Assembly: GCA_014706385.1 (NCBI GenBank)
Contig: JACGZH010000010.1
Span: forward strand, 682,001-746,000
Length of the DNA stretch: 64,000 nucleotides
Direction: 5' to 3'
Origin: Phaffia rhodozyma
Taxonomy: Eukaryota > Basidiomycota > Tremellomycetes > Cystofilobasidiales > Mrakiaceae
A model generated the notes under the pieces. That model was not told the origin of the DNA. It saw nothing but the letters and a program-made list of their open reading frames with translations, and searched no databases. The first letter of the stretch is position 1; the number at the start of each line of letters is the position of its first letter. A program made the position numbers and the translations under genes. Of the stretch, positions 61,262 through 63,351 are shown piece after piece.

Positions 61262-63351
61262 ATGCTCGAAGCTCGACTCCAACAAGCCTCTGTTCTTAAA
61301 AAACTTCTTGATGGTAAGTGACTCTGACAGAACGATAGCGGCTTCGTATCCTCCAGTATATTCATCAACTTACCGTCGAATACTGAACCTCGGTGCTTAT
61401 TGCCATGACTCTTGTACCTGTTTCGTTCGCTTCCATATCGTCCATCAGCTATCAAGGAGCTTGTTACCGACGCCAACTTTGATTGCAACGATGATGGAAT
61501 TGTAAGTTTGCATCTCTGAGGTCTTTTCCTATACCTCATTGTTCCTTTATTCTTGTTTTTTTTTTCTTCCTCATTTTTCTCTCCATCTTCTTTGTTTCAT
61601 CCTTCGTTATGACTTAAATCTCATAACAACGCGTTTGCTTTTAACTTGTTATTAAATTCTCTGAATCCTATGAAATAACACTTCCCACTCTTTCGCGTCT
61701 TGAATAGCACTTGCAAGCAATGGACAACTCTCATGTAGCCCTCGTTGCTGTTCAACTTAAACAAGAAGGGTTCGAGACCTACCGATGCGATCGAAATATG
61801 CCCCTTGGTATCAACGTGAGTGTATTTAGGATACATTGTGCTCAGAAGGAGAACATTCCATCAATACTGATACGTATAGATGTGTGGACATAACAGCTTC
61901 AATCCCTTACAAAAATCTTGAAGTGTGCTAAGGACGACGATATAGTTACTTTAAGGGCAGCTGACGGTGCGGATAGTTTGGGCTTGGTCTTCGAGGGCAG
62001 CAGTGAGTTTTCATCGTATGTGTATTTTGATTCATCAGAAGAATTTGACCTTAATTGTTCTATCTCTCTTGATCCCAACCAGACTCTGATCGAGTCGGGG
62101 TAGGTCCTCTCCTTCTATTTTCTATTCCTTTATCTCGGGGCGCGCTTTTGTTTGACTCATGAGTTATCTCACATTTATATAGGAATACGAGATCAAACTC
62201 ATGGATATCGATCAAGATCACCTTGGTATTCCGGATACCGCGTACGATGCTGAGATCACCATGTCATCTTCCGAGTTTCAAAAGATTTGCCGAGATCTGA
62301 CAACGCTTGGAGAATCTGTCAAGATTGAGGTCACTAAGGAGGGAGTTCGGTTCTCATCAGAGGGGGAGATCGGAAATGCTTCTGTCCTGCTCAAGGCGGG
62401 AAGCGTGAACAAGACTAGCAGCCGTGGATCAAGCAGCAAATCGACCAAGAAGGAGAGTGTCAAAGAGGAAGCGGACGACGATGAAGGAGATGTAATTGAT
62501 CTCGATGAGGACGGTGAGGATGGAGAGTCCAATGGCAAGAAGAGGGTTCAGGTCAAGAAGGAAAAGGATACCGACATGGATGGCGAAGCAGATGGGGAAA
62601 GAAGTAGAAAGGAGGCTCTATTTAGTGCGTAGGCTCTCAAGATATGCTCTAGGTCTGTGATTTCAAGAAGCAAGAGAAAACACGCTCAACTCACTGTCTG
62701 TTTTTCGATTTCTTATTTCTAATAGTCAACGATGAGGATGAAGAGGAGATTGATCAAGAGGAGGACGATGAAGAGGAGCGACCCAGGAAGCGCAAAGCGG
62801 CCGGCAAGGCTGCTGCTTCCCCCACTAGAGCCAAGAAGGGCAAGGTACGTCCTCAATCAATTGTGGATTTCTTTCAATCGTGTCGGATCCTTTAGCTAAC
62901 AACTTTATGCGAACGCTACTCTGATCCGAGCCAGTCGGTTAAGACGACTGACGACGAGGACAATGTTCAGGTGTCGGTTATCCTGAAGCAGGCTGTGACG
63001 CTCACTTTCTCGCTGAAGTACCTACTGAACTTTGCCAAATCGGCACCGTTGGCCAGGGCTGTGTCGCTGCACATGAGTAATGATGTCCCCCTTCTCGTAT
63101 GTCAATTTGATTTTTTACTTTGTGTTCATCTCTCTCACAAAGAGATGATCAGTCGCTGAATACGGACTGCAATCTTCTTCCTTTTTCTTGGTTTATGGGT
63201 TTTAGGTCAGCTTCGAGTTTACTTCTGGATACATCAACTACTTTTTGGCGTATGTTCTTGCTCTGTGTCTGACTTGTCTTTGTGACTTCTAAGAACGGAT
63301 ACTGATTTCGATGTTTGTCAAACTGATAGTCCTAAGATTGGAGAGGAGTAA
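61262..63351 (+). CDS. POL30: PCNA (DNA sliding clamp) with a long charged insert
   Basis: A homotrimeric clamp that tethers polymerases and repair factors to DNA in the nucleus. ATG at 61262 gives MLEARLQQASVLKKLLDA. Conserved segments follow: NFDCNDDGIHLQAMDNSHVA, GFETYRCDRNMPLGINL, LRAADGADSLGLVFEG, EYEIKLMDIDQDHLGIPD (interdomain connector) and FQKICRDLTTLGESVKIEVT. KEGVRFSSEGEIGNASVLL keeps the Lys equivalent to K164. It ends VPLLVSFEF, INYFLAPKIGEE (PIP-pocket side), with TAA at 63349-63351. Between GNASVLLKAGS and VQVSVILKQAVTLTFSL lies an insert of about 120 residues (62405-62961), where PCNA normally has a short loop. It is Asp/Glu/Lys-rich, with VIDLDEDGED (SUMO-interaction-like), VKEE and VKKE (SUMO-site-like) and RPRKRKAAGK (NLS-like). 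Two introns fall within it. Everything else is ordinary. Confidence 0.93.

Follow-up and report, generated by a model that had tools for sequence, protein, structure and literature searches.

Why should a replication clamp carry a long charged arm, and is that arm made at all? PCNA is among the most uniform of eukaryotic replication proteins, and the SUMO and ubiquitin attached to it contribute to how a cell deals with stalled forks. The question is raised by one gene in the window, a stretch of 64,000 nucleotides from Phaffia rhodozyma, a tremellomycete of the order Cystofilobasidiales. A preliminary description of this gene reported a charged insert of about 120 residues spread over three exons, and suggested that it could tether SUMO partners, be modified itself or help nuclear import. 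We confirm the insert, and the suggestions about its role are partly supported. The gene and the insert are laid out as follows.

61262-63351, plus strand: PCNA gene, ten exons joined at GT..AG sites
61262-61313, 61449-61501, 61708-61815, 61897-62002 and 62083-62099, plus strand: exons 1 to 5, from hand splicing at GT..AG
62183-62624, 62726-62844, 62935-63096, 63206-63249 and 63330-63351, plus strand: exons 6 to 10, from hand splicing at GT..AG
62336-62338, plus strand: codon of K164, the SUMO/ubiquitin acceptor lysine of PCNA (residue 164 is K, in TKEG)
62405-62624, plus strand: first part of the insert, residues 187-259 and the first base of codon 260, in exon 6
62625-62725, plus strand: intron 6, 101 bases, GTGCGT..ATAG, from hand splicing; its retention gives stops
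62726-62844, plus strand: middle part of the insert, from the last two bases of codon 260 to residue 299, exon 7
62845-62934, plus strand: intron 7, 90 bases, GTACGT..CCAG, from hand splicing; its retention gives a stop
62935-62964, plus strand: last part of the insert, residues 300-309, at the start of exon 8

The ten exons encode a protein of 374 amino acids with no inner stops, identical to the public PCNA model of Phaffia rhodozyma (P0001; identity 100%, length coverage 100%). The spliced protein matches the Pfam families PCNA_N (8.5e-56) and PCNA_C (1.6e-40), both above the cut-off, and shows a weak match to the related family Rad9. Profile searches with the two PCNA families over the 15-contig genome gave matches at the 61262-63351 locus only, which makes this the single PCNA found in Phaffia. 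An AlphaFold2 monomer model built from a 52-row alignment has a pLDDT of at least 90 at 207 residues and superimposes on the fungal PCNA crystal structures 5tup_A and 6qh1_B with a TMt of 0.96; the core fold is predicted to be intact. The gene is expressed: in the accessible text of an RNA-seq study of a P. rhodozyma strain, PCNA is among the downregulated genes, which speaks to expression and not to splicing (PMC8978057).

For comparison we used the best 120 of 2053 matches to Phaffia PCNA by similarity ranking. K164, said in the preliminary description to be kept just upstream of the insert, is indeed K in Phaffia, in 120 of these 120 and in 197 of 198 further rows (one gap). Residue 168 (codon 62348-62350) is R in Phaffia; it is R in 117, T in two and K in one of the best 120 of 2053 matches, and K in 157 of the 198 other rows. 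R at this position does not strictly track the insert, because S. pombe PCNA also has R. Residue 178 (codon 62378-62380) is A in Phaffia, in one plant model and in two Ustilaginomycotina described below; it is G in 119 of the best 120 of 2053 matches and in 192 of the 198 other rows. The accessible text of a 2022 review links K168 to the interaction with Rad5, and describes G178 as involved in ring stability and, together with K168, as required for Rad5 interaction (PMC9225081).

The insert itself comprises residues 187-309. It is 123 amino acids long, in frame and highly charged (41 D+E, 26 K+R), and its coding path across the three exons is open. In the AlphaFold2 model it is flanked by strands 177-183 and 313-316 and is predicted to be disordered, with pLDDT below 50 at 188-279, 284-293 and 303-305. 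The region that bears it is called the P-loop or back loop in the part of the 2022 review that was accessible (PMC9225081). One detail needs correction. The loop replaced by the insert had been put at 15-25 residues; measured between fixed anchors on either side, it has 9 residues in 115 of the 120 matches listed for S. pombe PCNA, while one match has 10, three have 2 and a plant model has 199.

The simplest objection is that the segment is spliced out, leaving a normal clamp, so that the insert is an annotation artefact, or that an insert-less splice form exists beside the long one. We scored splice sites with a model trained on the gene's own nine introns. The donors and acceptors of introns 6 and 7 score within the range of the other seven introns. 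In contrast, the donors near the start of the insert are poor (GTGAAC at 62405, -0.1; GTGGAT at 62424, 1.9) compared with those of the nine used introns (7.2-10.2), and the acceptor at 62970 scores 0.9, compared with 4.5-13.4 in the used introns. Removal of the whole segment as one intron, named in the preliminary description as what would overturn it, is thus disfavoured by splice-site scores, although one such join is possible: 62934 scores well as an acceptor (8.9), and a transcript joined from 62404 to 62935 would stay in frame and retain a 13-residue loop; the poor donor GTGAAC is the sole point against it. Five relatives (P0022, P0037, P0053, P0059 and P0065; 315-378 amino acids) carry an unbroken insert on contigs of only 1159-1430 bases. 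Because the gene has nine introns here, we take these short contigs to be spliced mRNA. The constant motifs described below would also be unexpected in such a segment. We consider splicing-out highly improbable; the insert reads as coding in Phaffia, a conclusion supported by its splice sites and its relatives.

Some PCNA models do give the objection a foothold. A third protein search was limited to proteins of at most 294 residues, and among its 120 matches listed, 17 Agaricomycete models lack the insert or have it cut (P0242, P0244, P0246-P0250, P0252, P0253, P0255, P0257, P0258, P0263, P0273, P0274, P0281 and P0306). Three of the 17 end before the post-loop strand or are too short to judge; in the remaining 14 the loop length ranges from -3 to 34 residues. 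Several of the insert-less models have congeners that carry the insert (in Irpex, Lentinula, Lentinus and Trametes). In addition, P0241, recorded from the bird Elachura formosa, is a Tremellomycete-like clamp, 77% identical to the Phaffia query piece, with 11 residues between the anchors; it is probably yeast contamination of the bird assembly, with the insert missing from the model. Because of the congeners and P0241, we suspect that the insert-less Agaricomycete models are mispredictions in which the insert was taken for an intron; otherwise they would reflect a second splice form or loss of the insert. Caution is due with any basidiomycete PCNA gene model in which this segment is missing, as it may be wrong.

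How widespread is the insert? The 120 relatives, sorted by name or else by resemblance, comprise 89 Agaricomycetes and 31 Tremellomycetes, of which Phaffia is one. All 120 (best 120 of 2053 matches) have between 55 and 142 residues from anchor to anchor, and Phaffia has 126. Two Ustilaginomycotina from the length-limited search, Tilletiopsis washingtonensis (P0266) and Malassezia obtusa (P0294), have 39 and 40 residues between the anchors, and both loops are acidic with a KKRK or KRRK. Judging from these two species, a short loop with acidic and basic parts may predate the Agaricomycotina, in which it would then have lengthened. No Pucciniomycotina were recognised by name among the matches listed in three protein searches (120 each). 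By these comparisons the insert is not peculiar to the Phaffia genome; it appears ordinary for its lineage. The preliminary description had allowed that the insert might prove universal and already described in this group, and half of that holds: the best 120 of 2053 matches all have it, and the insertion of one relative, Cryptococcus neoformans, is stated in the accessible text of the 2022 review (PMC9225081).

Which parts of the insert are under selection? Three short elements of its first half bear on this.

62459-62470, plus strand: VKEE, residues 205-208, psi-K-x-E followed by acids; outside the conserved column
62552-62563, plus strand: VKKE, residues 236-239, aligned with the psi-K-x-E of 89 of 89 Agaricomycetes among the matches listed
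62567-62578, plus strand: DTDM, residues 241-244, the counterpart by eye of the Agaricomycete D-V-E/D-M

We counted changes on a tree of the core sequence, for insert columns with at most 20% gaps. Among the 89 Agaricomycetes listed, the median is 18 changes per insert column, compared with 1 per flanking core column. Nevertheless, eight of 102 insert columns have no change in these 89: the K and E of the psi-K-x-E, the D and M of the D-V-E/D-M that stands after it, a K, an R and the following K in a basic block, and another lysine. The aligned site reads VKKE in 75 of the 89 Agaricomycetes listed, IKKE in six, VKEE in three, MKKE in two, and VKTE, VKRE and VKNE in one each; psi varies among V, I and M and x among K, E, T, R and N, and neither K nor E varies in any of the 89. 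As far as sequences can tell, this pattern of substitution fits the SUMO consensus. Other positions of the basic block do show exchange between K and R, whereas the psi-K-x-E lysine is constant in Agaricomycetes. The preliminary description had proposed two psi-K-x-E sites in Phaffia; VKKE lies in the conserved column, but VKEE falls outside any conserved column.

The site appears looser in Tremellomycetes, Phaffia's own class. In the 31 listed, the median is 6 changes per insert column, with 2 in the acceptor K column and 3 in the E/D column, and six other insert columns, including a K and an R of the basic block, are unchanged. The aligned site is VKRD in 17 of these 31, VKKE in two and other forms in 12. 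Among the 12, five have no psi-K-x-[DE] anywhere (P0008, P0018, P0019, P0020 and P0027, among the matches listed), one has VKQD, and six have an altered aligned site and another psi-K-x-[DE] elsewhere in the insert (P0004, P0005, P0038, P0084, P0094 and P0108); in P0094, R replaces the acceptor K. Because these six have the motif elsewhere, the acceptor site may have moved. The loops of Tilletiopsis washingtonensis and Malassezia obtusa contain no psi-K-x-[DE].

Alignment of low-complexity sequence can flatter motif columns. Motif counts are independent of alignment, and we compared them with 300 rounds of local shuffling within 15-residue stretches. The pattern [VILMF]K.[DE] occurs in 89 of 89 Agaricomycetes and 26 of 31 Tremellomycetes among the matches listed, compared with 43.3 and 6.8 after local shuffling. 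The NDSM form (psi-K-x-E/D with an acid at x3 or x4, as defined in the accessible text of PMC5727262) occurs in 88 of 89 and 26 of 31 among the matches listed, compared with 32.3 and 5.0. A stricter form, psi-K-x-E with at least three acids in six residues, occurs in 84 of 89 and 7 of 31 of those listed, compared with 12.6 and 1.7 after full shuffles. Counts of psi-K-x-[DE], of the NDSM form and of KKRK exceed all 300 local shuffles in both groups. Since shuffles ignore kinship, these counts indicate that the sequence is not random; selection is better judged from the tree count. CK2-type sites, a further candidate that we rejected, are fewer in both groups than in all 100 shuffles.

The Phaffia insert considered by itself is less striking. 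In 2000 shuffles of residues 184-310, two psi-K-x-E arise in 79, two psi-K-x-[DE] in 263, and two psi-K-x-E each followed by at least three acids in six residues in three. The Phaffia insert holds two NDSM-type sites, as do 14 of 300 local shuffles. Most motifs are only mildly unusual in Phaffia alone, and so the weight of the argument comes from conservation in relatives. The VKKE site and the basic block look selected because relatives have kept them much more strictly than the remainder of the insert.

These results bear on the idea that the insert is a neutral low-complexity expansion in a tolerant loop. The high median number of changes per column and the wide range of lengths among the matches listed are what such an expansion would produce, but the unchanged Agaricomycete columns and the motif counts above all local shuffles are not. 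We give a neutral origin of the whole insert next to no credence; conservation speaks against it for the motifs, and it may still hold for the linkers between them.

The D-V-E/D-M poses a different problem. It is complete in 85 of the 89 Agaricomycetes listed, and the constancy of its D and M is explained by no motif that we could name. The Phaffia DTDM was matched to it by eye, and the aligner placed DTDM a few columns off. The SUMO consensus needs neither D nor M, so psi-K-x-E and D-V-E/D-M together might instead be a docking motif for an Agaricomycete partner (a clamp loader or unloader, a chromatin assembly factor or histones), resembling a SUMO site by chance. Histone-binding proteins often contain acidic and basic runs, which would suit this view. 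However, the psi-K-x-E substitutions follow the SUMO consensus, and a partner for the docking motif is not known. We regard docking in place of modification as unlikely, while noting that the constancy of D and M goes beyond the SUMO consensus and that the whole block may bind something else.

The second conserved module is basic.

62779-62844, plus strand: basic block RPRKRKAAGK...RAKKGK, residues 278-299, resembling a bipartite NLS; defined by its conservation in relatives

In Phaffia, RPRKRKAAGK occupies residues 278-287, with RKRK at 280-283; the block kept in relatives is KKRK...KKAKK and likewise resembles a bipartite NLS. The classical bipartite pattern consists of two basic residues, a spacer of 10-12 and at least three basic residues in five, and the Phaffia insert matches it. 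A KKRK-like cluster occurs in 89 of 89 Agaricomycetes and 28 of 31 Tremellomycetes among the matches listed, compared with 10.3 and 2.6 after local shuffling, and a bipartite basic pattern occurs in 29 of 31 Tremellomycetes and 89 of 89 Agaricomycetes, compared with 6.3 and 43.7 in full shuffles. Among the 2000 shuffles of Phaffia residues 184-310, a KKRK-like cluster arises in 114 and four bipartite basic patterns in seven. The proposal that RPRKRKAAGK serves nuclear import has fared well in that the block is kept in relatives; import itself is a prediction. A bipartite NLS is the best reading of the block that its sequence suggests.

The arm might then be mainly a nuclear-import device, a lysine-rich, acidic spacer with a bipartite NLS; its psi-K-x-E would belong to this arrangement of basic and acidic residues and would receive SUMO rarely if at all. 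No module of the insert is more widespread than the basic block: KKRK-like clusters occur in 117 of 120 inserts (best 120 of 2053 matches) and in both Ustilaginomycotina loops, which are without psi-K-x-[DE], and the bipartite pattern exceeds its shuffled counts among the matches listed. In Tremellomycetes, the K and R of KKR show no changes, compared with 2 and 3 in the acceptor columns. On the other hand, PCNA of other organisms reaches the nucleus with no arm of this kind, and in Agaricomycetes the basic block is matched in constancy by the K and E of psi-K-x-E and the D and M of D-V-E/D-M. We doubt that import is the main purpose of the arm, although the idea deserves some weight.

A third element was the basis for the suggestion that the arm tethers SUMO partners.

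62492-62503, plus strand: VIDL, residues 216-219, resembling a SUMO-interaction motif; not conserved

VIDL at 216-219 is followed by DEDGED, and matches the SUMO-interaction pattern of a hydrophobic core flanked by acids. If it binds SUMO, the arm would tether sumoylated partners. Motifs of this type occur in 12 of 120 inserts (best 120 of 2053 matches), those of P0001 and 11 Agaricomycetes. The Agaricomycete count among the matches listed, 11 of 89, exceeds the 1.6 expected, and all 12 carriers listed, Phaffia included, have the motif ahead of at least one psi-K-x-E. But Phaffia is the only carrier among the 31 Tremellomycetes listed (0.8 expected), the V and I of VIDL stand in columns gapped in more than 90% of the relatives listed, and shuffles of Phaffia residues 184-310 give a VIDL-type motif in 210 of 2000 and one flanked by acids or serines in 134 of 2000. 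The pattern noted in the preliminary description is present, but its presence in only 12 of 120 relatives (best of 2053 matches) makes VIDL at best a local feature, for which a local role is possible. We think it very unlikely that tethering through VIDL is what the arm is for.

Our preferred reading, to which we give an even chance, is that the insert is an old, disordered back-loop arm that combines a SUMO acceptor usable directly by Ubc9 with a nuclear-import signal. The arm would have arisen as an outgrowth within the P-loop (back loop) of the basidiomycete clamp, with one per subunit and presumably three per ring. The basic block would be the import signal and the oldest part of the arm, because a KKRK/KRRK cluster is already found in the two short Ustilaginomycotina loops. 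The psi-K-x-E lysine would accept SUMO from Ubc9 without a ligase, as a functional counterpart of budding-yeast K127, and the arm would be a SUMO target rather than a SUMO reader. The back loop lies away from the PIP groove in the geometry of the ring, and SUMO on a flexible tether there would call Srs2-type SUMO-binding partners and leave the groove uncovered.

This proposal draws on two precedents. As stated in the accessible text of the 2022 review, budding yeast PCNA is sumoylated mainly at K164, by Ubc9 and Siz1, and less at K127, by Ubc9 alone; SUMO at either lysine can recruit Srs2; and among 15 species compared, K127 is confined to S. cerevisiae and C. glabrata (PMC9225081). The acids at x3/x4 of the NDSM contact K74 and K76 of Ubc9, according to the accessible part of PMC5727262. 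The use of K127 by Ubc9 alone and the NDSM rule together lead us to propose that the arm offers a ligase-independent consensus SUMO site. Residue 127 is G in 111 of the best 120 of 2053 matches and in 182 of the 198 other rows. The Phaffia genome encodes one MIZ-type ligase domain, ten matches to Rad60-SLD, a family that covers SUMO and ubiquitin alike, and UvrD-type helicase matches that may or may not include Srs2.

The motif evidence backs the SUMO-acceptor and import reading well in Agaricomycetes and less so in Tremellomycetes. We speculate, tentatively, that in many basidiomycetes Ubc9 places SUMO on an arm with its own import signal and not on the ring body, free of competition from ubiquitin at K164 and from partners at the PIP groove, and that D-V-E/D-M is a second, undescribed recognition element. 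If the arm does carry a selected SUMO site, the rules learned from budding yeast and human PCNA would not transfer directly to mushrooms and their yeast relatives. The roles of SUMO at K164 and at the consensus site would then also be separable, the two sites lying on different parts of the ring.

The insert is real and conserved, but its novelty is modest, since it was already noted in one relative. According to the accessible text of the 2022 review, the P-loop/back loop of C. neoformans PCNA is enlarged by more than 80 residues, an insertion that the other species compared do not have and to which no function is assigned (PMC9225081); the insert as such is therefore not new. The insertion is not stated in the accessible text of PMC5727262, PMC4030836, PMC7096222 (which does not mention PCNA), PMC8784325, PMC8978057 or PMC548137. 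In the parts of the literature covered, with most subscription journals outside its scope, we found no mention of conserved motifs in the basidiomycete PCNA insert.

Compared with Phaffia PCNA, the C. neoformans protein (P0094) has a charged insert with a KKRK block in the same loop, but it is shorter (96 compared with 126 residues between the anchors). It has A-R-R-D at the aligned acceptor site, with V-K-D-E and V-K-P-D elsewhere, and a T at 168 (seen in P0094 as GVTF, and given in the accessible text of PMC9225081). Coprinopsis cinerea PCNA (P0117, 368 amino acids) resembles that of Phaffia in having the insert, with I-K-K-E, D-V-D-M and KKRKKK, and differs in being without VIDL. In 2002, Hamada et al. 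reportedly described two cDNA forms of Coprinus cinereus PCNA, and the insert may already have been noted there too. The NDSM substrates of Ubc9, Elk1, CBP and calpain 2, share with the Phaffia insert a psi-K-x-E/D with acids at x3/x4; binding and sumoylation were measured for them, whereas for Phaffia PCNA they are predicted (PMC5727262, accessible part). K127 of budding-yeast PCNA (LKIE) is likewise a consensus-type psi-K-x-E on the clamp besides K164. In budding yeast this lysine sits in the interdomain connecting loop, whereas Phaffia-type clamps mostly have G at residue 127 and carry their consensus site on the insert of the P-loop.
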